Assembly (NCBI RefSeq): GCF_009832905.1
Contig: NZ_CP047135.1
Coordinates: 4,417,001 to 4,481,000 of the forward strand
Direction of reading: 5' to 3'
Source of the DNA: Stenotrophomonas sp. 364
GTDB lineage: Bacteria > Pseudomonadota > Gammaproteobacteria > Xanthomonadales > Xanthomonadaceae
Length of the DNA stretch: 64,000 bases
How positions within the stretch are numbered: the stretch's first letter is position 1; every line of letters begins with the position of its first letter. A program made the translations under genes and the position numbers. Positions 33,392 through 56,761 of this stretch are shown here, piece by piece. The notes beneath the pieces are model-generated. The model worked only from the letters and a program-made list of their open reading frames with translations. It searched no databases and was not told the DNA's origin.

Positions 33392-33434
33392 ATGGCTAGC
33401 GGTGTCATTCTAGCCATGGGCGGCCGTGCGTCTA
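33392..33434 (-). promoter_or_regulatory. kdgK-eda promoter with nested LacI-type operator
   Basis: On the minus strand, TAGACG (33434-33429), a 16-bp spacer and TAGAAT (33412-33407) make a plausible promoter. AATGACACCG (33409-33400) overlaps the -10 and start site and matches the motif upstream of the other pectin genes. The element is enclosed by a perfect 8-bp inverted repeat, ATGGCTAG (33392-33399) and CTAGCCAT (33410-33417). Repression by the locus's LacI-type protein is inferred. Confidence 0.6.
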
Positions 33435-33525
33435 CCGCGCCGAATGTCGAAAGCTTTGTCCCGCAAGCCTCCGGGGGACATTGAAAATCTGTTGCGCTGC
33501 AAGATGCTCCTTCTGGAACGGGCTG

Positions 33526-33555
33526 TTAACGTCCGCCCTGACCAGCGGTGTCATT
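33526..33555 (+). promoter_or_regulatory. Promoter/operator of the first pectin-locus TonB receptor
   Basis: TTAACG (33526-33531), 17 bp, then TGTCAT (33549-33554) is a candidate promoter. GGTGTCATT (33547-33555), the inverse of AATGACACC, covers the -10. The block TGTTA(A)CGT...TGACCA(G/A)CGGTGTCA is shared with the region upstream of the second receptor gene. Confidence 0.55.
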
Positions 33556-33610
33556 GCACTGACATGTCGCCGGATAGCTGTTTCATGTAGCACCTTGGGA
33601 GAGGGAAAAC

Positions 33611-36370
33611 ATGCAATCTCGAAACATCCAGAAAAAGACACCGGTTACCTTGCTTGCCCTGTCGATCGGCCTGGCGCTGAGTGGTACCGCGCTGGCCCAG
33701 GAAACGCCTACCGACCTGGACACCGTCACCGTGACCGGCTACCGCGCCAGCGTCGAGAAGGCGCTGGACATCAAGCGCGGCGAAGCCGGCGTGGTCGATG
33801 CCATCGTCGCCGAGGATATCGGCAAGTTCCCGGACCTCAACCTGGCCGAGTCGCTGCAGCGCATTCCCGGCGTGGTCATCACCCGTGAAGCCGGCGAAGG
33901 CCGCAACATTTCCGTGCGTGGCCTCGGCCCGGACTTCACCCGCGTGCGCATCAACGGGATGGAAGCGCTGACCACCGTCGGCGCCGGCGACCAGAGCGGC
34001 GGCACCAACCGCGGCCGCGGTTTCGACTTCAACGTGTTCGCCTCGGACCTGTTCTCGCAGATGCTGGTGCGCAAGACCGCCTCGGCCGACGTCGAGGAAG
34101 GGTCGCTGGGCGCCACCGTGGACCTGCGCAGCGCGCGCCCGTTCGACTACGACGGCTTCACCTTCGCCGCCAGCGGCCAGGCGGGCTACAACGCCATGGC
34201 CGAAAAGGCCGACCCACGTCTGGCGGCCCTGATCTCCAACACCTTTGCCGATGGTACCTTCGGTGCGTTGCTGTCGGTGGCCTATTCCGAGCGCCAGGCG
34301 CTGGAAGAAGGCTCCAACACCGGGCGCTGGGCCAATGGCACCAGCAACGGTAACTTCGCCCTCAGTCCGGCCTTCCCGGCCGCGCGCAGTGCCGGCGTCT
34401 ACCACCCGCGCTTCCCGCGCTATGTGCAGCTGGAACACCAGCAGGAACGTCTGGGCATCACCGGTTCGCTGCAGTGGAAGCCCAGCGATGCCACCGAGAT
34501 CTCGCTGGACGCGTTGTATTCCAAGATCGACGCCACCCGCGACGAGCACTACATCGAAGCCATTTCCTTCAGCCGCAACCGCGATACCGGCAATCCGCGG
34601 CGCCCCGAGCGCGACGGCAAGCCGACGATGGTGGTGCGCAACGGCGAGATCCGCAACAACGCGCTGGTCTACGGCGAGTTCGACAATGTGGACATCCGCA
34701 CCGAGAACCGCCACGACGAGTGGAGCACCGAGTTCAAGCAGGCCAGCCTCAACTTCGATCATCGTTTCAGCGACGCGTTCTCGATCAACGGCAAGGTGGG
34801 CGCCTCGCGCTCGGCGCACGAAAACCCCGTGCAGACCACCATCATCATGGACAAGTACGACGTTGACGGGTACAGCTACGACTACCGTGGCAACAGCCGT
34901 GCGCCCATCCTGAACTACGGTATCGACCCGACCGATCCCAACGGCTGGGAGCTGGCCGAAATCCGCCTGCGTCCGCAGTACGTGGACAACGATTTCGACA
35001 CCGCCGAAGTCAACTTCAACTGGAACATCAGCCCCGGCTTCCGCCTAAAGGGCGGTGTGCTGGCCAAGAACTACACCTTCAGCACGGTGGAACTGCGTCG
35101 CAACAGCGAAGTGGTCGTGCCAACGTTTGCCGACGGCACCCGCATCGTGTCGCCGGACCTGACCAGCCAGGCCGGTCTGAAGGGCATCTCCGGTTCGCCG
35201 TCCAACTGGGTGGTGCCCAACCTGGATGCCATTGCAGACGCGCTGGACATCTACAGCAACACCGGCACCTTCGCCGTTGCGCCCCGCGCCAACAACAGCC
35301 GCAGCGTGGAAGAGAAGGACCGCGGCATCTGGCTGATGGGTGAGTTCTCCACCGACCTGGGGTCCATTCCGCTGTCGGGCAACTTCGGCGTGCGCTACGT
35401 GCAGACCGAGCAGACCTCCAGTGGCGCGGCCACGGTGGCCGGCGCGCTGGTACAGGCCACCACCAACCGCAAGTACAACGACACCCTGCCCTCGTTCAAC
35501 CTGGTGGCGGAAGTCGCCCCGGACTTCCTGATCCGCCTGGGTGCGGCCAAGGTGATGAGCCGTCCCGGGCTGGGCAACCTGACGCCGGGCGTCACCGTGG
35601 CGGTGGCTGGCGGCGCACGGACCGTGGCCGGTGGCAACCCGAACCTGGATCCGTTCCGCGCCACCAACGTGGACATGAGCTTCGAGTGGTACTTCAACGA
35701 AGGCGCCATGGCCGGCATCGGCCTGTTCTACAAGGACATCGAATCGTTCGTGCAGACCACCCGCGAAGTGCGTCCGTACTCCAGCAGCGGCCTGCCGGCC
35801 AGCCTGCTCGACGGCACCGGCGCGTCGGTCAACGATGACTTCACCTTCACCATTCCGCTCAATACCCCAGGCGGAGAACTGTACGGCGTCGAGGCCAACT
35901 ACACCCAGCCCTTCACCTTCCTGCCGGGCAAGTGGTCCAACCTGGGCGTGCAGTTGAACTACACCTGGGTGGACACCAGCATCCAGTACGTCAACGGCGC
36001 CGGTGCGCCGGTGATGAAGAACCAGCTTACCGGCACCTCGAAGAAGGCCTGGAACGCCACGCTGTTCTACGAAGGTGAGGTGTGGTCGGGCCGTGTATCG
36101 GCAACCAACCGCAGCGACTACCTTACCCAGGCCCCGGGTCAGGAAACCGGCTTCAACGAGGACGGTTACCACGGCATGACCGGCACCACCGTGCTGGACG
36201 CTTCCCTGCGCTACCGCATCAGCGACCAGCTGGAACTGAGCCTGGAAGGCATCAACCTCACCAACGAGGCGTCCGACGAGTGGGTGTACTCGCCGAGCAC
36301 CGGCGAGCTGCCGCTGCAGTACACCGAGAGTGGCCGCCAGTTCCTGCTCGGCGTGCGCTACAAGTTCTGA
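33611..36370 (+). CDS. TonB-dependent receptor for pectic oligosaccharides (predicted), first copy
   Basis: The 919-residue outer-membrane receptor has a Sec signal (KKTPVTLLALSIGLALSGTALA). The plug domain carries DTVTVTGYR as TonB-box region, EDIGKFPDLNLAESLQRIPGV and NISVRGLGPDFTRVRINGMEAL. A large 22-strand-type barrel ends FLLGVRYKF with terminal Phe. This long receptor class is used by xanthomonads in carbohydrate-utilisation loci without SusD partners. GAGAGGGAAAAC before ATG 33611 is a good RBS. Position between kdgK-eda and secreted pectin enzymes points to oligogalacturonide or rhamnogalacturonan fragments; the ligand is inferred. The codons for KKTPVT contain an operator-like sequence. 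Confidence 0.9.
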   Translation: MQSRNIQKKTPVTLLALSIGLALSGTALAQETPTDLDTVTVTGYRASVEKALDIKRGEAGVVDAIVAEDIGKFPDLNLAESLQRIPGVVITREAGEGRNISVRGLGPDFTRVRINGMEALTTVGAGDQSGGTNRGRGFDFNVFASDLFSQMLVRKTASADVEEGSLGATVDLRSARPFDYDGFTFAASGQAGYNAMAEKADPRLAALISNTFADGTFGALLSVAYSERQALEEGSNTGRWANGTSNGNFALSPAFPAARSAGVYHPRFPRYVQLEHQQERLGITGSLQWKPSDATEISLDALYSKIDATRDEHYIEAISFSRNRDTGNPRRPERDGKPTMVVRNGEIRNNALVYGEFDNVDIRTENRHDEWSTEFKQASLNFDHRFSDAFSINGKVGASRSAHENPVQTTIIMDKYDVDGYSYDYRGNSRAPILNYGIDPTDPNGWELAEIRLRPQYVDNDFDTAEVNFNWNISPGFRLKGGVLAKNYTFSTVELRRNSEVVVPTFADGTRIVSPDLTSQAGLKGISGSPSNWVVPNLDAIADALDIYSNTGTFAVAPRANNSRSVEEKDRGIWLMGEFSTDLGSIPLSGNFGVRYVQTEQTSSGAATVAGALVQATTNRKYNDTLPSFNLVAEVAPDFLIRLGAAKVMSRPGLGNLTPGVTVAVAGGARTVAGGNPNLDPFRATNVDMSFEWYFNEGAMAGIGLFYKDIESFVQTTREVRPYSSSGLPASLLDGTGASVNDDFTFTIPLNTPGGELYGVEANYTQPFTFLPGKWSNLGVQLNYTWVDTSIQYVNGAGAPVMKNQLTGTSKKAWNATLFYEGEVWSGRVSATNRSDYLTQAPGQETGFNEDGYHGMTGTTVLDASLRYRISDQLELSLEGINLTNEASDEWVYSPSTGELPLQYTESGRQFLLGVRYKF
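33637..33649. promoter_or_regulatory. Operator-like sequence in the receptor coding start (copy 1)
   Basis: GACACCGGTTACC at +26 from the ATG resembles the operator TGACACCGGTTTACC with one T deleted. It is identical in the second receptor gene at the same offset and uses the unusual codons ACA and GTT. Confidence 0.35.
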
Positions 36371-36499: not shown

Positions 36500-36529
36500 G
36501 TTACGTTTCGGATGACCAACGGTGTCACA
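36500..36529 (+). promoter_or_regulatory. Promoter/operator of the second pectin-locus TonB receptor
   Basis: GTTACG (36500-36505), 17 bp, then TGTCAC (36523-36528) aligns with the first receptor's promoter. GGTGTCA (36521-36527) overlaps the -10. The whole block TGTTACGT...TGACCAACGGTGTCA corresponds to the first receptor's upstream region. Confidence 0.5.
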
Positions 36530-36625
36530 GCGGCACATGCGCGACAGACGCTCCGGGGAGGCCGGACGTCCATGACTCATCACCATCACGCTCGCATGGC
36601 GGCGCACCCTGGAAGGAAACACACG

Positions 36626-39600
36626 ATGGATCGACCGCTCCCACGAAAAAAGACACCGGTTACCTTGCTCGCAGTTGCCATCGCGTTCGCCCTGCAGGGC
36701 ACCGCCGGCATCGCCGCCGCCCAGCAGACGCCGGAAGCCGCCGCCGCACTCAACGCGGTCGATCTGGACAAGGTCGAGGTCAAGGCAACCTACCGCGAAA
36801 GCCTGCAGCAGTCGCTTGATGAAAAGCGCTACAGCGTCGAGCAGGTGGATGCGATCTACGCCGAAGACATCGGCAAATTTCCCGATCTGAACCTGGCCGA
36901 GTCGATGCAGCGCATTGCCGGCGTGTCGATCGACCGCGAAGGCGGCGAAGGCCAGCAGATCTCCGTGCGCGGCCTGGGCTCGGACTTCACCCGCGTGCGC
37001 ATCAACGGCCTGGAAGCACTCTCCACCGCCGGCAGCGGCACCACCGGGGTCAACCGCAGCCGCGGCTTCGACTTCAACACCTTTGCCTCTGAACTCTTCA
37101 GCCGGGTCAAGATCAACAAGACCCAGTCCGCGCAGACCGACGAAGGCTCGCTGGGCGCCACGGTCGATCTGCGCGGTTCGCGGCCGTTCGACTTCGAGGG
37201 CTTCCAGGCATCGCTTGGCGGCCAGTACGGCTACAACGAGCTGTCCAGGAACAAAGACCCGCGTATCTCCGGGCTGATCAGCAACACCTGGGCCGACGGT
37301 CGCTTCGGCGGGCTCATGTCGGTGGCCTACAGCAAGCGCACCATCTTTGAAGAAGGCTACAACCCGGTCCGCTGGGAGCATGGCAACTACCGCAACTCCA
37401 ACCAGAGCACCGCGGCCAACAACGGCACCTACGGCTTCTGCAGCCCGGTCGGCTACGACCCGCAGACCCCGCGCAATCCGCTGGCCAATGAAACCGCCGC
37501 CGGTGTCGGCAGCGCCGCCAACCAGGCGCGCAGCAACGGCTGGGGCAGCTACGGTATCGATGCCACCCACTGCGGCCCCGGCCTGGACCGGCCCGCCGCC
37601 ACGGCGGAAAACATCGCCGCCTACGAGACCGCGACCAATGCGTGGATCCCGCGCTACCCGCGCTACGTCCGCACCGAACACGAGATCGAGCGCCTGGGCG
37701 TCACCGGCGCGCTGCAGTTCAAGGTCAGCGACGACACCCAGCTGAACCTGGACATCCTGTATTCAAAGCTCGACAAGGACGTGCGCGAAGACTCCATCGG
37801 CGCCAACCTGCACCGCACCGCGCAGTACGGCGGCAAGACCCAGATCGTGGTGCGCCAGGCGCAGGCCGACGCGCAGAACCGCCTCACCTACGGCGTGTTC
37901 GACAACGTAGACTTCCGCACCGAATCCACCGCGATCGAAGAAAGCACCGCGTTCAAGCAGTTCAGCCTGAACCTGGAGCACCGCTTCAACGACGCGGTGC
38001 GGCTGGACGCGGTGGTCGGGCATTCCGAGTCGAACTACGAACGGCCGGTGTTCTCGATGGTCAGCTTCGACAACAGCAACCTGGACGGCTTCGTGCTGGA
38101 CATGCGCAACGGCAAGGTGCCGGCGATGTCGTTCCCGTTCGACCTCAGCGCCGTGGACAACTGGAAGTGGCTGGGCTACGGCAGCACGCCGGTCAATGCC
38201 AACGGCACCGCGCGCGGCGGCAACATCAGCGAAGTGCGGCTGAACCCGCAGTACGTCGACAACGCGTTCGACACGGCCAAGGTGGACCTCACCTTCGTCA
38301 TCACTCCCACCTTCACCCTGCGCGGCGGTCTGGCCTACAAGGACTACGACATGAGCACGCAGGAGTACCGCAACATCAGTTACGGGCGCCTGTCGCAGGC
38401 GCTCCCCGACGGGGTCACCGTGGGTGACCTCAGCAGCTCGCTGAGCGGCTTCGGCAAGGGCATGGACGGCAGCCTGCCCAACGCGTGGCTGGTGCCGGAC
38501 TTCAAGCAGATCGCCAACCTGCTGGACATCTACTGCAACTGCAACACCGGCACCCTGGGCGGTGACTATCGGCTGGCCAGCGTGGGCCACTTTGGCGCGT
38601 CCAACAACAATTTCGACGTCAACGAAAAGAGCTACGGCAGCTACCTGCAGCTGGACTTCAACACCGACCTGCTGGGCCGCGCGTTCCGCGGCAACCTGGG
38701 CGTGCGCTACGTGCAGACCCGCATCACCGCCGATGGCTATGCGCCGTGCACGGCTACCAACGCGAACGATCTGTCCTCGGCGTGCGAACCGTTCTTCGGC
38801 GTGGCCAGCGCCACGGCTGATCCGGGCGAGCGCCTGCAGGTCGGCACGCGGGTCGGCCACAAGTACGACGACTGGCTGCCCTCGTTGAACCTGGCCTGGG
38901 ACCTGAGCGACACCTTCGTGCTGCGCTTCGGCGCGGCCAAGACCATGGCCCGCCCGACCCTGTCCAACCTGTCGCCGAGCGTCAGCGGTGGTCCCACCGC
39001 CTACTTCGATGACGACCGCAGCTACTCGATCAACCTGGGCAATCCCAAGCTGGATCCGTTCCGCTCGACCAACTACGACCTGAGCGCGGAGTGGTACTTC
39101 GACGAGGGCGCGCTGCTGTCGGCGGCGGTGTTCTACAAGGACATCGACAGCTACGTGCAGCGCACCCGCCTGATGACCACCTGGGCCGACATGGGCTATT
39201 CGCTGGACCTGTTGCCCGCTGGCTTCAGCGCGGACACCGTGTTCAACGTGCAGAGCTACTTCAACACCCCGGGCGGCCCGCTCAAGGGCTACGAAGTCTC
39301 CTACCAGCAGCCCTTCAGCTTCCTGCCTGGCTTCTGGCGCAACTTCGGCGTGCAGCTCAACTACACGCACGTCGAGTCGAAGATCAAATACATGTTCAGC
39401 TCGGGCACCGGCAGCACCATCGTCACCACCTACACCGAGAACGACCTGCTGAACCTGTCGCCGAACTCATACAACGCCACCCTGTACTACGACGATGGCC
39501 GCTTCAGCGCCCGCGTCTCCACCAGCTACCGCGACGCGTACATCAGCACCATCCTCTCGCAGGAAAACGTATGGGACCTGGACGGCAAGCAGCTCGCCAC

Positions 39601-39805
39601 CGCCGATGTGCAGGGCAAGTACAGCGTGGAGAACGTGGACTTCAACATGTCCTACAAGGTCAACAAGAACCTCTCGCTGACCTTCGAAGCGATCAACCTG
39701 CTCGACACCGCCGATGAGCGCTACGTCGACTCGGCGCTGTCGCTGCCGGACCGTTACACGCACACCGGCCGCCAGTACTACCTCGGCCTGCGCTACAAGT
39801 TCTGA
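36626..39805 (+). CDS. TonB-dependent receptor for pectic oligosaccharides (predicted), second copy
   Basis: The 1059-residue paralogue of the previous receptor has signal KKTPVTLLAVAIAFALQG...GIAAAQ. The plug carries AEDIGKFPDLNLAESMQRIAGV and QISVRGLGSDFTRVRINGLEAL, and the barrel ends YYLGLRYKF. It is about 140 residues longer than its neighbour, with extra extracellular-loop sequence including four cysteines (SNQSTAANNGTYGFCSPVG, DATHCGPG, DIYCNCNTG). ATG 36626 has GGAAGGA 8 nt upstream; the open frame runs 64 codons further but overlaps the predicted promoter. Divergence from the first copy implies a different ligand size or type. The 1272-residue secreted protein gene follows 152 bp later. 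Confidence 0.9.
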   Translation: MDRPLPRKKTPVTLLAVAIAFALQGTAGIAAAQQTPEAAAALNAVDLDKVEVKATYRESLQQSLDEKRYSVEQVDAIYAEDIGKFPDLNLAESMQRIAGVSIDREGGEGQQISVRGLGSDFTRVRINGLEALSTAGSGTTGVNRSRGFDFNTFASELFSRVKINKTQSAQTDEGSLGATVDLRGSRPFDFEGFQASLGGQYGYNELSRNKDPRISGLISNTWADGRFGGLMSVAYSKRTIFEEGYNPVRWEHGNYRNSNQSTAANNGTYGFCSPVGYDPQTPRNPLANETAAGVGSAANQARSNGWGSYGIDATHCGPGLDRPAATAENIAAYETATNAWIPRYPRYVRTEHEIERLGVTGALQFKVSDDTQLNLDILYSKLDKDVREDSIGANLHRTAQYGGKTQIVVRQAQADAQNRLTYGVFDNVDFRTESTAIEESTAFKQFSLNLEHRFNDAVRLDAVVGHSESNYERPVFSMVSFDNSNLDGFVLDMRNGKVPAMSFPFDLSAVDNWKWLGYGSTPVNANGTARGGNISEVRLNPQYVDNAFDTAKVDLTFVITPTFTLRGGLAYKDYDMSTQEYRNISYGRLSQALPDGVTVGDLSSSLSGFGKGMDGSLPNAWLVPDFKQIANLLDIYCNCNTGTLGGDYRLASVGHFGASNNNFDVNEKSYGSYLQLDFNTDLLGRAFRGNLGVRYVQTRITADGYAPCTATNANDLSSACEPFFGVASATADPGERLQVGTRVGHKYDDWLPSLNLAWDLSDTFVLRFGAAKTMARPTLSNLSPSVSGGPTAYFDDDRSYSINLGNPKLDPFRSTNYDLSAEWYFDEGALLSAAVFYKDIDSYVQRTRLMTTWADMGYSLDLLPAGFSADTVFNVQSYFNTPGGPLKGYEVSYQQPFSFLPGFWRNFGVQLNYTHVESKIKYMFSSGTGSTIVTTYTENDLLNLSPNSYNATLYYDDGRFSARVSTSYRDAYISTILSQENVWDLDGKQLATADVQGKYSVENVDFNMSYKVNKNLSLTFEAINLLDTADERYVDSALSLPDRYTHTGRQYYLGLRYKF
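36652..36664. promoter_or_regulatory. Operator-like sequence in the receptor coding start (copy 2)
   Basis: GACACCGGTTACC lies at +26 from the ATG, identical in position and sequence to that of the first receptor. Confidence 0.35.
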
Positions 39806-44709: not shown

Positions 44710-45300
44710 CTAGGCCGCGTCGGTTTCCATCACCTGCACGCGGCGCTGGTACCAGTCGCCTGCGTCGGGTTCGAAGATCGCGCTGCGGGTCATCTCGCCT
44801 TCGTACACATGCACCGAGATGGCCAGGTCTTCATCGCTGGTGTTGCGGATGGTGTGGTACTCGTGCGGCGGGATCAGGCTGCCGGCACTGCCGCAGTCGC
44901 CCAGTACCGCCGGTTCGGCGCGGAAGCGGAAGCGCTCGCCGTCGCGTTCGAGCAGCCGGTACTGGGTGATTTCCAGCTGGCCCAGCCACACCCCTTCCAC
45001 GCACCACAGCCCGCTGTGGTCATGCAGCGGCGTGCCCTGCCCCGGCCCCCAGCTCATCGCCACGATGCTGTAGCCGTGCGCGGCGCTGCGGTACAGCTCG
45101 CGGCGGGCGTAGTGGTCTTCGATGGGGTGGTGCACGCAGGCAGGCAGCTGGATGCGGCTGTCGGCGATGGCCTCGCGCAGCGCGCTGCGCAGGGTGGCGG
45201 CGATCTGCTGCGGGCTCTCGTGCTGCACCGCGTGGTCGATGGCCGCGATCAGTCGATCACGGCCATGGAACGGCGGAAAGAGATTGCTGTGGTCTTGCAT
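44710..45300 (-). CDS. Cysteine dioxygenase family cupin (thiol dioxygenase)
   Basis: The 196-residue cupin has iron ligands in PLHDHSGLWCVEGVWLG (HxH) and in LIPPHEYHTI. This pattern is that of cysteine or 3-mercaptopropionate dioxygenases, which oxidise a thiol to a sulfinate using non-haem Fe(II). Length matches bacterial CDO-like enzymes (190-210). I cannot tell which thiol is used. ATG 45300 is the natural start. It leads a two-gene unit with the PhzF-like gene. About 115 bp of upstream DNA contains no pectin-type operator. Confidence 0.82.
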   Translation of the reverse strand: MQDHSNLFPPFHGRDRLIAAIDHAVQHESPQQIAATLRSALREAIADSRIQLPACVHHPIEDHYARRELYRSAAHGYSIVAMSWGPGQGTPLHDHSGLWCVEGVWLGQLEITQYRLLERDGERFRFRAEPAVLGDCGSAGSLIPPHEYHTIRNTSDEDLAISVHVYEGEMTRSAIFEPDAGDWYQRRVQVMETDAA

Positions 45301-47902: not shown

Positions 47903-48899
47903 GGCGCGCGGGCTCCGTGTGGCGCGAAGGGATCCAGCGCAGGGCCAGTTCGGGCCACTGCGCAACGGTCAAACCGGGCGGGATGCGCACGCCGAAGCCG
48001 TGGCCGCCCTGCGGGAACAGGTGCATTTCGGTGGACACGCCGGCCCGCAGCAGCGCCTGGTAATAGACCAGGCTGTTGTGCACCGACACCACGGTGTCGT
48101 CCTGTGCATGCACGAGGAACGTGGGCGGGGTATCGGCGCGGACCTGGTCCTGCATCGAGAACTGCTGCTGCAGCGTGCTGTCCGGATGCGGCCCGAGCAG
48201 GCGCGTACGCGAGCCGGTATGGGCATGGCTGCCCATGTCGATCACCGGGTAGATCAGCAGCGCGACATCCGGGCGTGCGCTGAGCGCATCGGTGGCATCG
48301 CGATGCGGGTACACCGGCGTATCGAAGCCGTTGCTCAGCCGCGCGGCGACATGCCCGCCGGCCGAAAACCCCATCACCCCGATGCGTGCCGGATCCAGCT
48401 GCCAGCGCGCGGCCCCGGCGCGGATCACCCGCATCGCGCGCTGTGCATCGGCCAGCGCCGCCTGCCGATCGCTGCGACCGGCGGGCAGCCGGTAGCGCAG
48501 CACGAACAGGGTCACCCCGCCCTGCGCGACGAACGCCGGCACCAGGGCGGTACCTTCCTTGTCCAGCACGATGCGCTGGTACCCGCCACCGGGCACCACC
48601 AGCAGCGCGCTGCCATTGGGCCGCGCTGGCCGGTAGACCACCAGGTAGGGCGCGCTGATGGTGTCGATGTAGCGGTCCGGCAGCGCGGGGTCGGTGCTGC
48701 GTTCAATCACGTTGGGCGCGCTGGCCGGGCCGGTCTCGCCGGGGACCTGGCCCTGCGGCCACAGATCGATGCGGTCGGGCGCACCGGCCACCGGTTCGGT
48801 CGCCGGCACCGGGCGTTCGGCCGCGCGGGTCAGGGCCAGCGGACTGGCAAGCAACAGCAGCATCAACAACGGCAGCAACAGGGGGCGGCGCATCCGCAT
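47895..48899 (-). CDS. Secreted alpha/beta hydrolase (acetyl esterase-like)
   Basis: The 334-residue protein has a Sec signal (MRMRRPLLLPLLMLLLLASPLALTRAA). Motifs: oxyanion VVPGGGYQRIVLDKEG, nucleophile GFSAGGHVAARL (GxSxG), acid in HAQDDTVV and catalytic His in PQGGHGFGV. It resembles BD-FAE/Axe-type carbohydrate esterases common in polysaccharide loci. AAAGGA lies upstream of ATG 48899. It is the first gene of the esterase operon and is divergent from the hydratase-TRAP operon, with the operator at 48971 in between, so both may be co-regulated. Confidence 0.87.
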   Translation of the reverse strand: MRMRRPLLLPLLMLLLLASPLALTRAAERPVPATEPVAGAPDRIDLWPQGQVPGETGPASAPNVIERSTDPALPDRYIDTISAPYLVVYRPARPNGSALLVVPGGGYQRIVLDKEGTALVPAFVAQGGVTLFVLRYRLPAGRSDRQAALADAQRAMRVIRAGAARWQLDPARIGVMGFSAGGHVAARLSNGFDTPVYPHRDATDALSARPDVALLIYPVIDMGSHAHTGSRTRLLGPHPDSTLQQQFSMQDQVRADTPPTFLVHAQDDTVVSVHNSLVYYQALLRAGVSTEMHLFPQGGHGFGVRIPPGLTVAQWPELALRWIPSRHTEPARHE

Positions 48900-48965: not shown

Positions 48966-48994
48966 TTGCCAATGACACCGGTTTACCATATACA
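48966..48994 (+). promoter_or_regulatory. Promoter with operator filling the spacer (hydratase-TRAP-lyase operon)
   Basis: TTGCCA (48966-48971, five of six) and TATACA (48989-48994) are separated by exactly 17 bp. AATGACACCGGTTTACCA (48971-48988) fills that spacer. The identical 18-mer lies upstream of kduI. The central ACCGGT with a CpG is the kind of site LacI-family proteins bind. It also lies upstream of the divergent esterase operon. Confidence 0.75.
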
Positions 48995-49046: not shown

Positions 49047-49868
49047 TTGAGCAACGACAACGGCAAACAGGACCTGCCAGACCACGGTTTGAGTGAGATC
49101 GCCCGCCACTTCGTCGGCGCCCGCCAACACGGCCGATCCCTGCCGGATTTTCCGGGCACGATCCCCGCCGACCTGGTGACCGCCTACCAGGTACAGGACC
49201 AGGCCATCGCGCTCTGGGATGACCGGGTGGTTGGCTGGAAAGTGGGCTACATCGCCGCCGAACGCCGCGATGCCTCGGGCGATGACCGCCTGCTGGGCCC
49301 GATTTTCTCGCGCAATCTGCAAAATGCTACCGGTGGAACAGTGGACATTCCGGTGTTCGTCGGCGGCTTCGGCGCGGTCGAGGCCGAGTACGTGATCCAG
49401 CTGCAGGAAGACGCCCCGGCCGACAAGCTGCACTGGACGCCCGAAGAAGCCGAGGCGCTGGCCGCCAGGCTGTTCATCGGCGTGGAAGTGGCCAGCAGCC
49501 CGCTGGCCACCATCAACAAACTCGGCCCGCGCGTGGTGGTGTCCGATTTCGGCAACAACAACGGCCTGGTGCTGGGTACCGAGATCGCCGACTGGACCCG
49601 CCTGTACGATGCCGACCTGCGTGCGGAAACCCGCATCGACGGCGAGGTGGTCGGTACCGGCGGTGCCACCCTGCTGCCCGGTGGCCTGCGTACCGCCTAT
49701 GCCTTCGCCCTGGGCCGTTCGGCGCAGCGCGGGCGGCCGTTGAAGGCCGGCGACCTGATCGCCAGCGGCAACGCCACCGGCATCCACGACATTGCCGTAG
49801 GCCAACAGGCACTGATCCGTTTCGCCGGTTACGGCGACATTACCTGCAGGGCCATCGCTGCCGGGTAA
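49047..49868 (+). CDS. 2-keto-4-pentenoate hydratase / FAH-fold protein in the uronate operon
   Basis: The 273-residue product resembles MhpD-type hydratases of the fumarylacetoacetate hydrolase fold: VVGWKVGYIAAERR, a metal-ligand region FGAVEAEYVIQL, IGVEVASSP and LKAGDLIASGNATG. I read the start as TTG 49047, preceded by GGGAG at good spacing; the frame upstream contains the promoter. It is the first gene of a probable operon continuing into dctP-dctQ-dctM, PL10 and GH43. Canonical oligogalacturonide catabolism does not need a keto-enoate hydratase, so its substrate here is an open question. Cytoplasmic, no signal peptide. Confidence 0.8.
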   Translation: MSNDNGKQDLPDHGLSEIARHFVGARQHGRSLPDFPGTIPADLVTAYQVQDQAIALWDDRVVGWKVGYIAAERRDASGDDRLLGPIFSRNLQNATGGTVDIPVFVGGFGAVEAEYVIQLQEDAPADKLHWTPEEAEALAARLFIGVEVASSPLATINKLGPRVVVSDFGNNNGLVLGTEIADWTRLYDADLRAETRIDGEVVGTGGATLLPGGLRTAYAFALGRSAQRGRPLKAGDLIASGNATGIHDIAVGQQALIRFAGYGDITCRAIAAG

Positions 49869-49905
49869 CCGCGCAGCCATGGACAGTCCGCTTGGGAGGG
49901 CGCAG

Positions 49906-50910
49906 ATGTTCACTCGCAGAAGTTTCCTTGGCACCGGTCTGGGCGCGCTTGCCGTGCCTGCGCTGGCGGCCTGTTCGCGGTCAACGGTTAGCGCGCCGGC
50001 CGGTGCGCAGCTGCTGACCGCCACCGACGTCCATGTGGCCGACTACCCCACCGTCACCGCGGTGAAGTGGATCGGCCAGCAGCTGGAACACAAGACCGGC
50101 GGCCGCCTGAAGCTGCGCCAGTACCACTCCGGCCAGCTCGGCCGTGAGTCCGAGGCGATCGACATGGCCCGCTTCGGCGCCATCGACATCACCCGGGTCT
50201 ACTCCGGTGCACTCAACAACGCCTTTCCGCTGACCCAGGCGCTGTGCCTGCCTTACGTGTTCGAGTCGGTGGCGCACATGCGCCGCGCGCTGGACGGCGG
50301 CATCGCCGACGCGGTGCTGAAAGGCTTCGAGACTCGCGACCTGGTCGGCCTGGCCATCTACGATTCCGGCGCGCGCTGCTTCTACAACACCAAGCACCCC
50401 ATCGTGGAGCCCAAGGACCTGCACGGCCTGAAGCTGCGCGTGGCGTCGTCGGACATCTTCATCCAGCTGATGCGCCTGCTGGGCGCCAACCCGACCCCGA
50501 TGTCGCTGGGCGACACCTTCTCGGGCATGGAAACGCACATGATCGACGGTGCGGAGAACAACATGCGCAGCTTCCATTCCAGCCGTCATTTCGAGGCCGC
50601 GCACTACTGGTCGCAGAGCGACCATTCCTACGCGCCGGACGTGCTGCTGATGTCGCGGCAGAGTCTGGAGGCACTCACCCCGGCCGACCGCGCGCTGGTG
50701 ATCGAGACCGCGCGTGAATCTGTCACGGTGATGCGCGAGCAGTGGGATGCCTCGGAAAACACTGCCCGGCAGGCCGTGGCCGACTTCGGCGTCACCTTCA
50801 ACGCCGTGGACATGCCGGCCTTCCGCAAGGCCGCCGACCCGCTGCTGCAGCAGTACCTGCAGCAGCCGGCGCTGGCCGCGCTTACCCGTCGCATCCGCGA
50901 CTTCGCCTGA
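49906..50910 (+). CDS. dctP: TRAP transporter substrate-binding protein (DctP family)
   Basis: The 334-residue periplasmic binding protein has DctP-family features: LRQYHSGQLGRESEAIDMARFGAIDITRVYSG, PKDLHGLKLRVASSDIFIQ with the conserved Arg that binds the ligand carboxylate, and SLGDTFSGMETHMIDGAENN. The N-terminus FTRRSFLGTGLGALAVPALAAC combines a twin-arginine motif with a lipobox ending LAAC, so a lipoprotein is possible. ATG 49906 follows GGGAGGG. It is 37 bp after the hydratase gene and 12 bp before dctQ. Its neighbours suggest a uronate or unsaturated digalacturonate ligand. Confidence 0.93.
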   Translation: MFTRRSFLGTGLGALAVPALAACSRSTVSAPAGAQLLTATDVHVADYPTVTAVKWIGQQLEHKTGGRLKLRQYHSGQLGRESEAIDMARFGAIDITRVYSGALNNAFPLTQALCLPYVFESVAHMRRALDGGIADAVLKGFETRDLVGLAIYDSGARCFYNTKHPIVEPKDLHGLKLRVASSDIFIQLMRLLGANPTPMSLGDTFSGMETHMIDGAENNMRSFHSSRHFEAAHYWSQSDHSYAPDVLLMSRQSLEALTPADRALVIETARESVTVMREQWDASENTARQAVADFGVTFNAVDMPAFRKAADPLLQQYLQQPALAALTRRIRDFA

Positions 50911-50922
50911 GGCCCCGACGCG

Positions 50923-51459
50923 ATGTCCGACCCGACTTCCGAAACCCCCGTCATCGTCAGTGCGCCGCAGCGCGTGCTCAACGTCATCGCCGACGTGGCC
51001 ATCCATATCGCCGTCATCGCCCTGCTGGGGCTGGTGGTGGTGCAGGGCTGGCAGGTATTCGCACGCTACGTCATCAACGATTCGCCCAGCTGGACCGAGC
51101 CGGTCACGCTGCTGCTGCTGGCCACCGCGATGAGCCTGGGCGCGGCCACCGGCGTACATACCCGCCGCCACTTCGGCTTCTTCCTGCTGGCCGCGCACAT
51201 GCGCCCGGGGCTGCGCCGCGCGGTGGACGTGTTCGCCGCGCTGGTGGTGGCCGTGCTCGGCGTCGTGATTGCCTGGTGGGCCGCGGTGCTGCTGCTGGAT
51301 GGCCTGGACATCAAGGCGGCCGGTGCCAACCTGCCGCAGAGCATCAACTACCTGCCGCTGTCCATTGGCGGCGCACTGATGGCGATCTTCGCCGTGAACC
51401 AGATGGTGCAGGCCGTGCTGCCCGTCGACGCCGACACCGTTGCCGAGGGAGACCGCTGA
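50923..51459 (+). CDS. dctQ: TRAP transporter small membrane subunit (DctQ)
   Basis: The 178-residue protein has four transmembrane helices (VAIHIAVIALLGLVVVQGW, PVTLLLLATAMSLGAATG, VDVFAALVVAVLGVVIAWW, PLSIGGALMAIFAVNQMV). Family motifs are FARYVINDSPSWTEPVTLLLL and THTRRHFGF-like HTRRHFGFFL. It partners DctM in the sodium-driven TRAP transporter. It lies between dctP and dctM with 12- and 3-bp gaps. Confidence 0.93.
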   Translation: MSDPTSETPVIVSAPQRVLNVIADVAIHIAVIALLGLVVVQGWQVFARYVINDSPSWTEPVTLLLLATAMSLGAATGVHTRRHFGFFLLAAHMRPGLRRAVDVFAALVVAVLGVVIAWWAAVLLLDGLDIKAAGANLPQSINYLPLSIGGALMAIFAVNQMVQAVLPVDADTVAEGDR

Positions 51460-51462
51460 GCC

Positions 51463-52746
51463 ATGGGTATCACGATCCTGTTTACCGTTTTTGCGGTACT
51501 GCTGCTGCTGGGCGTGCCGGTGGCCTATGCGTTGGCCGCGGCCGCCCTGGCCACGTTGTGGTACCTCGACCTGCCTACCCTGGTGCTGGTCCAGCAGATC
51601 TCGGCCGGTACCGGTTCGGCCTCGCTGATCGCCATTCCGCTGTTCATCTTCGCCGGCGAAATCATGATGCGCGGCGGTATCTCCGAACGCCTGATTTCGC
51701 TGGCCTCGTCGCTGGTGGGGCGCATGCGCGGTGGCCTGGGCCAGGTATCGATCCTGTCTTCGCTGTTCTTCGGTGGCGTGTCCGGTTCGGCAATCGCCGA
51801 TGTCTCGGCAGTGGGCGGCACGATGATTCCGCAGATGGTCAAGCGTGGCTATGACCGCGACTTCGCGGTCAACGTGAGCATCACCGCCGCACTGGTGGCG
51901 CTGCTGGTGCCGCCGTCGCACAACCTGATCCTGTTCTCGGCCGCGGCCGGCGGCGGGCTGTCGATCGCCGACCTGTTCGCGGCCGGTATCGTGCCGGCGC
52001 TGTTGATGACCGTGGCGCTGATGATCACAGGTTACGTGGTCGCGCGCCGTCGCGGTTATGGCGTGGAAATCTTCCCCGGCTGGCGTGCGGTGCTGCTGCG
52101 GCTGGTGTCGGCCCTGCCCGGCCTGGGCCTGGTGGCGCTGATCTTCATCGGTATCCGCGCCGGTATCTTCACCGCGGTGGAAAGCGCGGCCATCGCAGTG
52201 GTCTACGCGCTGCTGGTCACCACCGTGCTGTACCGCCAGCTCAACTGGCGCGAGTTCATGGGCACGGTGACCCATGCGGCGCGCAGCACCGGTGTGATTC
52301 TGTTCGTAATCGCCACCGCGGCGGTGTTCGGCTGGCTGCTGGCGTACCTGGAGGTGCCGGCGGCGGCGGTGGATTTCCTGCGGTCCTTCGCGCACAGCCA
52401 GTTCATGGTGCTGCTGATGATCGTGGTGATGCTGTTGCTGCTGGGTACCTTCATGGACCTGGCGCCGATGATCCTGATCTGCACGCCGATCTTCCTGCCG
52501 GTGGCCAAGGCCTATGGCATCGATCCGATCCACTTCGGCCTGGTGCTGGTGCTGACCGGTGGCCTGGGCCTGGTGACGCCGCCGGTGGGCTCGGTGCTGT
52601 TCATCGGTACCGCGATCGGCAAGATCAGCGTGGGCGAGAGCATGCGCTCGATCTGGCCGTTCTGGTTCGCCGCACTCGGCGTGCTGCTGATCGTCACCTT
52701 CTTCCCGGAACTGTCGCTGTGGCTGCCCGCCCTGCTGCGCGCGTAA
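51463..52746 (+). CDS. dctM: TRAP transporter large permease subunit (DctM)
   Basis: The 427-residue membrane protein has about 11-12 helices and the DctM signatures ASLIAIPLFIFAGEIM, GGLGQVSILSSLFFGGVSGSAIAD, LLVPPSHNLILF and GGLGLVTPPVGSVLFIG. It is the Na+-coupled transport channel. In pectin loci of several proteobacteria TRAP systems carry unsaturated uronates, which fits here. It is in operon with dctQ (3 bp) and the PL10 gene, whose start is at or just past its stop codon. Confidence 0.95.
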   Translation: MGITILFTVFAVLLLLGVPVAYALAAAALATLWYLDLPTLVLVQQISAGTGSASLIAIPLFIFAGEIMMRGGISERLISLASSLVGRMRGGLGQVSILSSLFFGGVSGSAIADVSAVGGTMIPQMVKRGYDRDFAVNVSITAALVALLVPPSHNLILFSAAAGGGLSIADLFAAGIVPALLMTVALMITGYVVARRRGYGVEIFPGWRAVLLRLVSALPGLGLVALIFIGIRAGIFTAVESAAIAVVYALLVTTVLYRQLNWREFMGTVTHAARSTGVILFVIATAAVFGWLLAYLEVPAAAVDFLRSFAHSQFMVLLMIVVMLLLLGTFMDLAPMILICTPIFLPVAKAYGIDPIHFGLVLVLTGGLGLVTPPVGSVLFIGTAIGKISVGESMRSIWPFWFAALGVLLIVTFFPELSLWLPALLRA

Positions 52747-52748
52747 GC

Positions 52749-53876
52749 GTGCGGCGGCTCGCGGTCCTGCTGTGGATCGCCCTACCCTGCGCCGTGATGG
52801 CGCAGGGCCAGGACATCCCGCTGCGCGGCTTCCAGGACGGCATCAACCACTGGCAGAGTGGGCACGGCACGGACTACCCGCGCTATTCCCCCGATCAGTA
52901 CCGGCAGATCGCCGACAACCTGGTCGCGCTGCAGCGTCGTGGTGGCGGCTGGGCGGTCAACCAGGATCCGCAGCGCATCCTCGATGACACCGCCCGTACG
53001 CAGGCGCTGGCCGACCAGGCCACGCCCGGCGGCAGCTTCGACAACCGCAACGTCTACACCCAGGTGGCCTACCTGGGCGAAGCGTTCGCGCGCAGCGGGG
53101 ACGTACGCTATCGCGACGCGGCCGTGCGCGGGCTGGACTTCATCCTTGCCGAGCAGATCGACAGCTGTGGCGGCTGGCCGCATTCGGTGCCATCGCGCAC
53201 CGCGTACCACGGCCACATCACCTTCGCCGACGACGTCACCAGCGGGGTGCTGACCACGCTGCGGCGCGTGCTGCGCGAGCCGGTGTTCGGTTTCGTCAGT
53301 GCCGGGCAGCGGGCCCGCGTGCAGGCCGCCGTGGCCGCCGGCGATGCCTGCCTGCTGCGCCTGCAGGTGCGCCAGGACGGCGTGCCCACGATCTGGGCCG
53401 GGCAGTACGACCGCACCACCCTGCAGCCCGCACAGGGCCGGAAATTCGAGCTGCCGGCCCTGGTCACCGACGAGAGTGTGGGCGTGGTGCGCTACCTGAT
53501 GTCGATCCCGGATCCGCCGCCGGCGGTGGTCGCCTCGGTCAACGCCGCCATGGCGTGGTTCCAGGCGCATGCGTTGACCGGCTGGCGGCTGGAGACGTTC
53601 GAGACGGCCCCGGCGCAGTTCCAGTTCCATCGCACCACCGTCGACCGCCGCCTGGTCGCCGATGCCGGCGCGCCGCTGCTGTGGGGGCGCTTCCACGACC
53701 TGCACGACAGTTCGGTGCTGCTGGCCAACCGCGAGGGCGAACGGGTGGCCCGTTTCGACGCGATTCCGCGCGAGCGCCGCACCGGCTACCACTGGTACGG
53801 CACCTGGCCGCAGGCCCTGATCACCACCGACTACCCGCGCTGGCAACAGCGCACTGCCGGGACCCGGGCGCGCTGA
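52749..53876 (+). CDS. Pectate lyase, polysaccharide lyase family 10
   Basis: The 375-residue secreted enzyme cleaves polygalacturonate by beta-elimination. PL10 hallmarks are present: NVYTQVAYLGEAFARSGDVRY, CGGWPHSVPSRTAYHGHITFADDVTSGVL (NGGWPQ-like), GQYDRTTLQPAQGRKFELP and ESVGVVRYLMSIP, with GRFHDLHDSSVL near the end. I use GTG 52749 (VRRLAVLLWIALPCAVMAQ), which gives a clean signal peptide 2 bp after the dctM stop; GTG 52719 overlaps dctM and is also possible, and no strong RBS is visible for either. It is the only recognisable polygalacturonate-cleaving enzyme in the locus. Confidence 0.88.
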   Translation: MRRLAVLLWIALPCAVMAQGQDIPLRGFQDGINHWQSGHGTDYPRYSPDQYRQIADNLVALQRRGGGWAVNQDPQRILDDTARTQALADQATPGGSFDNRNVYTQVAYLGEAFARSGDVRYRDAAVRGLDFILAEQIDSCGGWPHSVPSRTAYHGHITFADDVTSGVLTTLRRVLREPVFGFVSAGQRARVQAAVAAGDACLLRLQVRQDGVPTIWAGQYDRTTLQPAQGRKFELPALVTDESVGVVRYLMSIPDPPPAVVASVNAAMAWFQAHALTGWRLETFETAPAQFQFHRTTVDRRLVADAGAPLLWGRFHDLHDSSVLLANREGERVARFDAIPRERRTGYHWYGTWPQALITTDYPRWQQRTAGTRAR

Positions 53877-53914: not shown

Positions 53915-55495
53915 ATGCGTTTGAGGACGACCCTGGCCAGCTTCGCCACCGCCTGCCTGATGCTGGCGGGCGCCGGCCACGCCGCCGAGCCTTCCACCGC
54001 CTGGAAGCGCGGGATCGAAAACCAGCGCCAGGCCGACCTCGGCAATGGCACCTTCCTCAACCCGGTGTTCGCCGGTGATCGCCCGGACCCCTCGGTGCTC
54101 AAGGATGGGCAGGACTACTACCTCACCCTGTCCTCGTTCGACGCCTACCCCGGCCTGCCGATCTGGCACTCGCGCGACCTGGTCAACTGGCAGCCGCTGG
54201 GCCATGCCATCACCAGGAACGTGGGGGCGATCTGGGCGCCGGACATCGTCAAGCACGGCAGCCGCTACTACATCTATTTCCCGGCCCGTACCGGTGAAAC
54301 CCGCAGCAACTTCGTGGTCTGGGCCGACAGCATCAAGGGCCCCTGGAGCGAGCCGATCGACATCGGGCTGGGGGCGTACATCGACCCGGGCCACGCGGTG
54401 GGCGAAGACGGCAAGCGCTACCTGTTCCTCAGCGGCGGCGACTACGTGCAGCTGGCCGACGACGGGTTGAGCGTGGTCGGCACGCCCAGGCACGTATACG
54501 ACGGCTGGAAGTACCCGGAAAGCTGGGACGTGGAGGCCTACGCGCAGGAAGGCCCGAAGATCAACTTCCGCGATGGCTGGTACTACATGACCACCGCCGT
54601 GGGCGGTACCGCCGGCCCGCCCACCGGACACATGGTGATCACCGCCCGCTCGCGCTCGATCCACGGCCCGTGGGTGAACGCGCCCAACAACCCGATCATG
54701 CGCACCCGGTCGGCCGCCGAGCCGTGGTGGTCGCGCGGCCATGCCACCGTGATCGAGGGCACCGACGGGCGCTGGTGGATGATGTACCACGGCTACGAGA
54801 ACGGGTACTGGACGCTGGGCCGCCAGGCCCTGCTGGAGCCGATCGAATGGACCGCCGATGGCTGGTTCGTGGCCAAGGGCGGCGACCTCGGCCAGCCGCT
54901 GGCCAAGCCCTCGGGTACCTCGGCGGGCCAGCACGGCATGGCGCTGTCCGATGACTTCCGCGGCACGCGCCTTGGCCCGCAGTGGTCGTTCTTCAACCCG
55001 GCCCAGGACGAGTACGCGCGGCTGGACTTCACCGGCACAGGCATGGTGCTGCAGGGCAAGGGCGAGACCCCCCGCGACAGCTCGCCGCTGACCGCCATCG
55101 CCGGCGACACGGCCTACCAGTTCGAGGTCGAAATGCACGTCGCCCCGGGCGCGGTGGGCGGTGCCCTGCTCTACTACAGCGACCGCCTGTACGTGGGCGT
55201 GGGCAGCAACGGCGGGAAATTCATCATGCACCGCTACGGCGAGGAGCGCCCCACCCGGCTGGCCCCCAGCGCCACCGGCGGCACGCTGTGGCTGCGGGTG
55301 ACCAACAACCGCCATATCGTCACCTTCCACTCCAGCACCGATGGCAAAACCTGGCAGAAGTACCCGGTTCAGATGGAAGTCTCCGGCTACCATCACAATG
55401 TGGCGGGCAAGTTCCTGGCCCTGAAGCCGGCCCTGTACGCCGCCGGCCAGGGCAAGGTGGAGTTCCGCAACTTCCGCTACCGCGCCCTCGATTGA
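53915..55495 (+). CDS. Glycoside hydrolase family 43 enzyme, secreted
   Basis: The 526-residue protein has a Sec signal (MRLRTTLASFATACLMLAGAGHA). Its five-bladed propeller starts NPVFAGDRPDPSVLKDGQDYYLT, with the general base Asp in RPDPS. A second Asp lies in LGAYIDPGHAVGEDG and the acid Glu probably in AYAQEGPKINF. The last ~190 residues are a beta-sandwich (LSDDFRGTRLGPQWSFFNP...) common on GH43 enzymes. Members are alpha-L-arabinofuranosidases or beta-xylosidases/galactosidases; trimming of pectic side chains is likely. AAGGGAG precedes ATG 53915. It follows PL10 by 38 bp and precedes the lacI-type gene by 43 bp, likely the same operon. Confidence 0.88.
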   Translation: MRLRTTLASFATACLMLAGAGHAAEPSTAWKRGIENQRQADLGNGTFLNPVFAGDRPDPSVLKDGQDYYLTLSSFDAYPGLPIWHSRDLVNWQPLGHAITRNVGAIWAPDIVKHGSRYYIYFPARTGETRSNFVVWADSIKGPWSEPIDIGLGAYIDPGHAVGEDGKRYLFLSGGDYVQLADDGLSVVGTPRHVYDGWKYPESWDVEAYAQEGPKINFRDGWYYMTTAVGGTAGPPTGHMVITARSRSIHGPWVNAPNNPIMRTRSAAEPWWSRGHATVIEGTDGRWWMMYHGYENGYWTLGRQALLEPIEWTADGWFVAKGGDLGQPLAKPSGTSAGQHGMALSDDFRGTRLGPQWSFFNPAQDEYARLDFTGTGMVLQGKGETPRDSSPLTAIAGDTAYQFEVEMHVAPGAVGGALLYYSDRLYVGVGSNGGKFIMHRYGEERPTRLAPSATGGTLWLRVTNNRHIVTFHSSTDGKTWQKYPVQMEVSGYHHNVAGKFLALKPALYAAGQGKVEFRNFRYRALD

Positions 55496-55538
55496 GCTGC
55501 CCGCTAGAATCCCCTGACTCATCCCCGGTTTGAACGAC

Positions 55539-56597
55539 ATGTCATTGCGCAGCAAAACCGATCCGTCGCCGCACGGATTGACCAAAGGCAAGGCCGCCAC
55601 GATCAACGACATCGCGCGCCTGTCCGGGGTGTCCAAGAAGACTGTCTCGCGCATCATCAACAACTCGCCGCTGGTGCGCAAAGACACCCGCGACAAGGTG
55701 GAAGCACTGATGCGCGAGGTGGGCTACACGCCGGATCCGCTGGCGCGTGGCCTGGCGTTCCGGCGCTCGTTCCTGATCGGCATGGTGTACGACAACCCCA
55801 CCGCGCAGTACATCGTGGACATGCAGTACGGCGCGCTGGACGCGCTGCGCGGATCCAGTTTTGAACTGGTGGTGCACCCCTGCGATTCGCGCAGCCCCGG
55901 CTATATCGAAGGGGTGCGCCGCTTCGTGCAGCAGCAGAAGCTGCACGGCGTGATCCTGGTGCCGCGTGCGTCCGAAGACCAGGCGCTGGTGGACATGCTC
56001 GATGAGATCGGCGTCCGCTTCACCCGCATCGCCTCGCTGCCACTGGACGACACCTCGCAGATGGTGGTCACCCACGACCGCGACGGCGCCGCCGAAGCGG
56101 CCGACTACCTGCTCTCGCTGGGCCACCGCGACATCGCCCTGGTCACCGGCCCGAGCGCCTACCGTTCGGCGCACGAGCGCACCGCCGGCTTCATCGATGC
56201 GCTGGCCAAGCGCGGCATCGAGCTGCCCCCGGCGCGCATCGTCGAGGCCGGCTACACCTTTGAATCGGGCGTGGCCGCCGCCGAAAAGCTGCTGCTGGGC
56301 AAGCAGCGCCCCACCGCCATCTTCACCGGCAACGATGAAATGGCCGCCGGCATCTACAAGGTCGCCCTGCGCGCCGGCATCAACATCCCGCGCCAGCTGT
56401 CGATCATCGGCTACGACGACAGCCCGCTGGCCTCGCGCCTGTGGCCGTCGCTGACCTCGGTGCGCCGCCACACCCGCGACACCGGGCGTACCGCCGCGGC
56501 CATGCTTATCCAGCCCGATGGCCAGGCCGCGCTGCAGATCGCCAGCGTGCGCCCGCACCTGATCGTGCGCGACTCCTGCCAACCGCCCGAGGATTGA
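55539..56597 (+). CDS. LacI-family transcriptional regulator of the pectin/uronate locus
   Basis: The 352-residue regulator has an N-terminal helix-turn-helix TINDIARLSGVSKKTVSRII and hinge YTPDPLARGLAFRRS. A periplasmic-binding-protein-like effector domain follows (IGMVYDNPTAQYIVDMQYGALD, GVILVPRASED, AIFTGNDEMAAGIYKVALRAG, IIGYDDSPLASRLWPSLTSV). It sits between the GH43 gene and kduI. A shared palindromic motif with central ACCGGT lies in five promoter regions of the locus and is the probable operator. The effector is probably KDG or a related keto-acid by analogy with other uronate regulators. ATG 55539 is chosen; TTG 55530 is possible. No strong RBS is seen. Confidence 0.92.
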   Translation: MSLRSKTDPSPHGLTKGKAATINDIARLSGVSKKTVSRIINNSPLVRKDTRDKVEALMREVGYTPDPLARGLAFRRSFLIGMVYDNPTAQYIVDMQYGALDALRGSSFELVVHPCDSRSPGYIEGVRRFVQQQKLHGVILVPRASEDQALVDMLDEIGVRFTRIASLPLDDTSQMVVTHDRDGAAEAADYLLSLGHRDIALVTGPSAYRSAHERTAGFIDALAKRGIELPPARIVEAGYTFESGVAAAEKLLLGKQRPTAIFTGNDEMAAGIYKVALRAGINIPRQLSIIGYDDSPLASRLWPSLTSVRRHTRDTGRTAAAMLIQPDGQAALQIASVRPHLIVRDSCQPPED

Positions 56598-56621
56598 CCC
56601 GCGCCGCGATGGCAACGACGG

Positions 56622-56638
56622 GCGTTCATGATGAACGC
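56622..56638. promoter_or_regulatory. Perfect 17-bp palindrome between the lacI-type gene and kduI
   Basis: GCGTTCAT-G-ATGAACGC is perfectly symmetrical. It lies about 25 bp after the regulator's stop and about 95 bp before the kduI operator. It may be a second regulator's site or a terminator-like hairpin; there is no T-run. Confidence 0.5.
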
Positions 56639-56731
56639 GTCGCCACGCGCCCGTGCAATCGGTTGCCGATCGCACGGCTTTTCTGACATGGACACCACGC
56701 CGGGCCCGCCCTGGCCTATCGTGCGCTGCAA

Positions 56732-56761
56732 AATGACACCGGTTTACCAACTCGCTACACT
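56732..56761 (+). promoter_or_regulatory. kduI promoter overlapped by the LacI-type operator
   Basis: AATGACACCGGTTTACCA (56732-56749) is identical to the operator at 48971. ATGACA (56733-56738, five of six to TTGACA), a 17-bp spacer and TACACT (56756-56761) form the likely promoter, so the operator covers the -35. Transcription would start near 56768, about 50 bp before the kduI ATG. Confidence 0.75.

Follow-up and report, generated by a model that had tools for sequence, protein, structure and literature searches.

In enterobacteria, pectin lyases, uptake and the 2-keto-3-deoxygluconate (KDG) pathway are coordinated by KdgR, a regulator of the IclR family that responds to a KDG-type inducer. 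A similar gene set appears to be coordinated in the pectin/uronate locus of Stenotrophomonas sp. 364 that we analyze here, but its regulator belongs to the LacI family rather than to that of KdgR. The locus spans approximately 31.7-59.8 kb of a 64,000-nucleotide stretch (the window; positions 4417001-4481000 of a 4.84-Mb one-contig genome), and five of its promoters carry a short element that we read, with a probability of roughly 0.88 on the sequence comparisons below, as the operator for the locus's own LacI-family repressor (gene at 55539-56597), which would bind at all five and be released by a pectin product.

The LacI-type hexuronate regulators ExuR, KdgR, UxaR and UxuR are, like the protein studied here, LacI-family local regulators of uronate genes; according to the main text of PMC4052901, their sites lie mostly 30-140 bp upstream of genes and autoregulation is common in the family. 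That main text counts 1251 of 1303 motifs of LacI-family transcription factors as even palindromes, whereas the sites described here mostly follow a 15-bp frame, odd in length, whose right half is weak, and it contains no word beginning with Xanthomon or pectin, although the group may be in the supplement. In the portions of PMC1790865 and PMC13282271 that treat the Xanthomonas CUT loci and SuxR/XylR, a LacI-type repressor, a TonB receptor, a transporter and degradative enzymes likewise share one locus. These portions report that polygalacturonate induces a receptor of the Xcc pectin locus and name no regulator or operator for that locus; they describe XCC0120-0122 as seeming unique to Xcc, so that it may differ from the present locus. 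A 2012 paper, in the part covered, saw no evidence yet on the regulation of Xanthomonas pectin-degrading enzymes (PMC3551730). No description of the present regulator or operator was found in the titles, abstract openings and passages covered, including parts of PMC4052901, PMC1790865, PMC3551730, PMC13282271 and PMC5507952. The analysis adds three features to the sequence-only reading: two predicted operators between kdgK and a receptor gene, a candidate sixth target at a GH67 gene, and a DNA-binding domain kept where no operator was found. For pectin use in a family rich in plant-associated bacteria, the locus supplies a regulator, an operator and a set of genes that can be put to the test; the paired operators, like the regulator that persists with no operator in view, are clean cases for studying the evolution of LacI-type switches.

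Predicted operator sites and the LacI-family regulator

The sequence-only reading had reported an 18-mer, AATGACACCGGTTTACCA, identical at 48971-48988 and 56732-56749, and shorter inverted cores, AATGACACCG at 33400 and 33546 and TGACACCG at 36520; all of these are present, and they belong to the five predicted operators listed here with the regulator gene.

33393..33409, minus strand: predicted operator of the kdgK-eda promoter, AATGACACCGCTAGCCA (sequence matches)
33539..33555, minus strand: predicted operator of the TonB receptor 1 promoter, AATGACACCGCTGGTCA (sequence matches)
36513..36529, minus strand: predicted operator of the TonB receptor 2 promoter, TGTGACACCGTTGGTCA (sequence matches)
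48971..48988, plus strand: predicted operator between the divergent PaeX-like esterase (minus) and the FAH-like/TRAP/PL10/GH43/LacI operon (plus) (exact 18-mer)
56732..56749, plus strand: predicted operator of the kduI-kduD promoter (exact 18-mer)
55539..56597, plus strand: LacI-family regulator, 352 aa (PF00356, PF13377)

The pattern TGACACCGNTNNNC[ACT], built from these five sites and those of relatives, has five matches in the window, exactly the five sites. Allowing up to three mismatches, the 18-mer has no further match in the window (0 in shuffles) and two forward and 0 reverse matches genome-wide, both in the window, against 1 for a reversed-pattern control. The shorter RTGACACCGNT matches the genome 17 times, five of them at the window sites. 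A longer pattern, WRTGACACCGBTDRYCA, whose frame is unsuited to the two 18-mer sites, gave 3 exact genome matches (all in the window), 2 at one mismatch and 32 at two; since the reversed control reached 29 against these 37, the exact matches alone stand out. Of the one-mismatch matches, one is coding (window 43279) and the other, at genome position 1065610 (GTGACACCGCTGACCC), was rejected; it lies in a 58% G+C stretch where few open reading frames (ORFs) were picked and there is no Rfam match. The 8-mer TGACACCG was likewise discarded as a regulon marker because the window has further copies outside the sites, inside predicted genes at 9352 and 52985 and between two predicted genes at 9239.

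In an ungapped alignment the five sites share TGACACCG, a T at position 10 and a C at position 14. Position counts were made on TGACACCG words found no more than 320 bp from a regulon gene start, as distinct 24-mers: the FAH-like (23), kduI/kduD (71) and kdgK/receptor-1 (35) promoters have T at position 10 in 96-100% and C at position 14 in 89-93%, and the receptor-2 set (7) has them in 57% and 86%, respectively. As the words were chosen by TGACACCG, these counts are silent on the left half, for which loci picked by the regulator (below) provide the unselected test. The putative operator is a fixed left half followed by a degenerate right half, usually in a 15-bp frame, and the central-CpG palindrome claimed in the sequence-only reading is for this reason not a clean one. 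A perfect palindrome, TGACACCGGTGTCA, is present in the locus of one distant ortholog (L226), and receptor-type sites fit TGAC-N7-GTCA.

Conservation was assessed in 80 loci picked solely by similarity to the LacI protein, 73 of which have a usable FAH-like start with room upstream and 67 a usable kduI start, the remaining loci being without a usable start. ATGACACCGG stands upstream of the FAH-like/TRAP operon in 73/73 and upstream of kduI in 67/67 testable loci. Operator words are the best-kept 10-mers of these two window promoters (top of 157 and of 167), the medians over all 10-mers being 1/73 and 4/67, and the kduI site keeps a distance of 74-93 bp to the start, though the gap between LacI and kduI ranges from less than 100 bp to approximately 1.6 kb. 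The core TGACACCG at receptor 2 was found in 7 of the 8 genomes with that gene, three of the 7 being without T at position 10; none was seen in the eighth, the fragmented G016.

For genome-wide counts we used a strict pattern, ATGACACCGBTN{2,3}YCA, which had 58 matches in 25 genomes of the genus against 1 for the reversed control. It is present in 18/18 genus genomes with a close LacI ortholog (88-100%), and of the 7 others just G007 has it, as one match with no regulon gene near. The check for random genome-wide occurrence proposed earlier was run and left the reading standing; across the family the sites precede the same pectin/uronate genes. Among 198 family genomes, with LacI presence taken as a match at E up to 1e-120, 67 have both LacI and the strict pattern, 14 LacI only, 18 the pattern only and 99 neither (Fisher p 4e-22). 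Nine of the 14 LacI-only genomes carry ATGACACCGG at the FAH-like/TRAP promoter with a right half outside the strict pattern, and the other five (G006, G161, G216, G068 and G199) show no TRAP operon in the stretch examined. In other families, LacI matches reach 50% identity or more in eight genomes; seven of these carry the site in the promoter of the FAH-like gene or of kduI, and the contig of the eighth (G027) stops at the promoter. The predicted operator is kept in related bacteria beyond the genus.

We assign these putative operators to the LacI protein of the locus because of this co-occurrence, the gene neighbourhood and an invariant recognition helix. The gene begins with ATG at 55539, the position given in the sequence-only reading, and is the sole sugar-type regulator of the locus among annotated ORFs. 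Its product has the N-terminal LacI helix-turn-helix (PF00356, 66.8 bits) and the periplasmic-binding-protein-like ligand domain (PF13377, 121.8 bits) of the LacI/GalR family, both above cut-off, and Pfam shows these domains only, with none of IclR type. All 22 aligned sequences, which apart from the window's own are 50-93% identical to it, carry the recognition helix SKKTVSR and hinge Leu72, and the helix persists in orthologs as low as 51% identity that have a site in their loci (L179/L226). The six LacI paralogs of the genome (E up to 1e-30) have LK, IK, AM, VA, RA or PM instead of KK. By sequence, relatives with solved structures include CcpA, RbsR, PurR and LacI. E. coli LacI has a C-terminal leucine tail, unlike the present regulator, which ends just past the ligand domain. 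Proteins 98-99% identical to it come from Stenotrophomonas, several under the name S. rhizophila, and protein databases name a LacI-family regulator, with ExuR once (P0007) among the 120 of 3252 matches listed.

Two side observations came from the related loci. In five pectin-positive relatives (L038, L040, L041, L042 and L046: three S. maltophilia, one Pseudomonas hibiscicola and one uncultured Stenotrophomonas), TGACACCG occurs approximately 55-70 bp upstream of the aligned start of the CDO-like cupin gene (44710-45300 in the window). One locus filed as Bacillus subtilis SK7B5 (L033) is of Stenotrophomonas type, with LacI 97-98% identical, and is probably contamination.

Promoter positions, proposed mechanism and alternatives

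The predicted operator at 48971 exactly fills the 17-bp spacer between TTGCCA (48966) and TATACA (48989), as had been noticed before, and a second putative promoter was placed at kduI.

48966..48994, plus strand: putative promoter TTGCCA-17-TATACA with the operator as spacer (sequence; partly conserved along with the site)
56733..56761, plus strand: putative kduI promoter ATGACA-17-TACACT with its -35 inside the operator (promoter scan)

The promoter scan, whose match numbers of 1 and 2 do not exceed those of shuffles (means 0.7 and 1.3), also places a divergent TATGGT across the right-hand end of the site at 48971; for kdgK it gives TAGAAT, which overlaps the kdgK site by 3 bp. At both TonB receptors it found no hexamer and hence none overlapping the sites, which lie 3′ of a putative -10 read by eye; the earlier claim that each site overlaps a -10, -35 or spacer accordingly stands for TRAP, kduI and kdgK and fails for the two receptors. 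Over 73 loci, the letters of the TRAP promoter are kept in more than 90% (-10) and approximately 60-90% (-35), and among the predicted promoters comparative support is limited to this one. A second shared element, TGCGCTGCAAGATG, lies at 33493..33506 (plus strand) and again exactly at 56722, with 2 mismatches at 36468 and 48955. As a side observation, this element (TGCGCTGCAARATG) is exact at two and has 2 mismatches at two of the five promoters, with just two other window matches at up to 2 mismatches and 28 against 17 expected at up to 3; similar words occur upstream of GH43 in relatives.

From sequence context we infer binding, the sign of regulation, the promoters, the effector, autoregulation and esterase control, as follows. 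Without pectin, a repressor dimer would sit on ATGACACCG-N-T-NNN-C-A at the five promoters, in the -35/-10 spacer of TRAP, on the putative -35 of kduI, at the edge of the putative -10 of kdgK and 3′ of the by-eye -10 of the receptors, and would sterically block RNA polymerase. An imported oligogalacturonide product would release it, most likely KDG or its precursor DKI, given that the regulon comprises KduI, KduD, KdgK and Eda; the sites at these KDG-pathway genes (kduI-kduD and kdgK-eda) are conserved. Release would raise the receptors, the TRAP transporter, the lyase, GH43 and the KduI-KduD-KdgK-Eda pathway together, and the repressor would rise with them as the product of the last gene of the TRAP operon, so that it is probably autoregulated and self-limiting. 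The sequence-only reading had placed receptors, transporter, lyase, esterases and catabolic genes under one repressor; for the esterases, this is plausible only by way of the divergent site at 48971, shared with the TRAP operon.

Several observations weigh against this assignment. Co-occurrence by itself cannot separate motif from regulator, since the two usually share a locus, and 18 of the 117 genomes without a LacI match have at least one strict match, more than the reversed control (7 matches in 198 genomes); ten of these 18, examined with 1.5-kb flanks, showed no pectin catabolic or receptor gene. Three of the 22 SKKTVSR sequences come from genomes in which no site was found. In seven genomes of the genus that lack the pectin locus the DNA-binding domain persists, yet no operator was found: the 30 half-sites examined, out of 38, were all placed by a simple rule within open frames of high GC3. 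This is a weak negative, since a similar rule places the real 48971 and 36513 sites in over-long frames. The related helices LKTVSR and IKTVSR, moreover, could cross-bind.

Paralogs with these two helices exist in the genome, and one operator-like site, AATGACACCGCTCGACA, adjoins a 35%-identity LacI gene and GH67, but it is improbable that a different paralog, or both proteins, bind the five sites: a paralog of 40-42% identity occurs in genus genomes without the strict pattern while the locus LacI tracks it in 18/18, and SKKTVSR stays together with the site in orthologs as distant as 51% identity. An activating or dual role for the LacI protein is quite unlikely; the sign of regulation is read from position alone, the predicted promoters do not exceed shuffles in number and the receptor sites overlap no scanned hexamer, whereas the TRAP spacer, -35 and -10 overlaps are positions of a repressor. 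Most LacI-family proteins repress. Overlap with putative promoter hexamers, and the resemblance of ATGACA to a -35, would also suit a conserved promoter element, such as an unusual -35; this is very unlikely given that the stretch occurs in either orientation with respect to transcription and at varying positions, has few genome copies, and in genomes without the regulon has no intergenic copy among the same 30 half-sites. Chance recurrence of a short word, to which the other copies of the 8-mer core in the window would point, was rejected as extremely unlikely, with conservation in 73/73 and 67/67 loci at the top of 157 and 167 10-mers while neighbouring sequence was free to change.

Paired predicted operators, a GH67 site and lone regulators

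E. coli GalR, a LacI-family protein without the C-terminal tetramer tail, acts at paired operators approximately 113 bp apart. Paired sites are found here too, with a weak phase signal only. Two predicted operators in the same orientation lie 146 bp apart at 33393-33555, between kdgK and receptor 1, and this pair is seen in 18/18 genus genomes with a close LacI ortholog; one site is usual where the kdgK-receptor region is short (approximately 200 bp). Same-orientation TGACACCGNTRGYCA pairs at 107-225 bp number 108 in 103 of 395 family genomes, with 0 in the reversed control, many of them between kdgK and receptor and some at GH43 genes; closer tandem sites occur in L222, L225 and L235. Their spacings form states near 112, 116, 125, 136, 147, 150, 156 and 178 bp, in steps of approximately 10 bp, and for these 8 states the phase at 10.5 bp gives R 0.62 with a simulated p of 0.006 under a null that forces states apart, or approximately 0.05 by a plain hand Rayleigh estimate. 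In-phase pairs were rejected as proof of looping, this evidence being weak and the most frequent spacing (155 bp, in 32 of the 108 pairs, each under genus label g31) corresponding to 14.8 turns, off phase.

Elsewhere in the genome, a candidate sixth target, AATGACACCGCTCGACA, lies at 1964172-1964188 (L219:9173-9189), approximately 15 bp upstream of the assumed start of a GH67 alpha-glucuronidase. Of 13 genomes that have this gene, 6 keep a site of this type and 7 lack it, and because flanking sequence is also conserved there we treat it as a candidate only.

The seven congeneric genomes mentioned above (G001, G005, G006, G008, G017, G161 and G216; L168-L172 and L244-L246) hold a lone LacI ortholog that has cupin/eda on one side and PheH/AsnC on the other; the stretches examined show neither kduI nor TRAP or receptor genes beside it, and no operator was found in the cupin-LacI intergenic region. 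Relative to the protein of the window, the DNA-binding domain is 98% and the ligand domain 67-69% identical; in the tree these proteins sit inside the family clade on one long branch (0.54), and dN/dS is approximately 0.09 and 0.07 in two gene pairs. Tentatively, and with more doubt than confidence, the lone regulator may have been kept and re-purposed, with a frozen DNA-binding domain, a changed ligand domain again under purifying selection, a new effector, and another or a missed single site.

Gene content of the locus

The remaining genes of the locus, which is bordered at 29795 by a sigma-54 activator and at 61874 by an AsnC protein, are as follows.

31699..32337, minus strand: eda, KDPG aldolase (PF01081)
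32324..33340, minus strand: kdgK-type sugar kinase, PfkB (PF00294; NCBIfam matches under cut-off)
33611..36370, plus strand: TonB-dependent receptor 1 (PF00593, PF07715)
36572..39805, plus strand, start inferred: TonB-dependent receptor 2 (PF00593, PF07715)
45417..48860, minus strand: GDSL esterase, carboxylesterase and PaeX-like esterase, the start of the last uncertain (domain matches)
49047..49868, plus strand, TTG start: FAH/MhpD-like protein heading the TRAP operon (weak TIGR03218 match, below cut-off)
49879..52746, plus strand: TRAP transporter DctP, DctQ and DctM (domain matches)
52743..53876, plus strand: pectate lyase, PL10 (PF09492; TIGR02474 above cut-off)
53915..55495, plus strand: GH43 glycoside hydrolase (PF04616)
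56817..57665, plus strand: kduI (NF002091 above cut-off)
57732..58487, plus strand: kduD-type short-chain dehydrogenase (PF13561)
58666..59769, plus strand: GDSL esterase-cupin fusion (PF13472, PF07883)

The locus also holds a gene for a LamG-domain protein (plus strand) and PhzF-like and cupin genes (minus strand). An RNA element was considered and rejected, as Rfam at gathering score gave no match in 31000-60000. The putative FAH/MhpD-like protein encoded at 49047..49868 adjoins LacI or heads the TRAP operon even in other families (L222-L229). The 17-mer AAAGACACCGGTTACCT occurs unchanged close to the 5′ end of both receptor genes (33634-33650 and 36649-36665); it is coding and was left out of the operator count.

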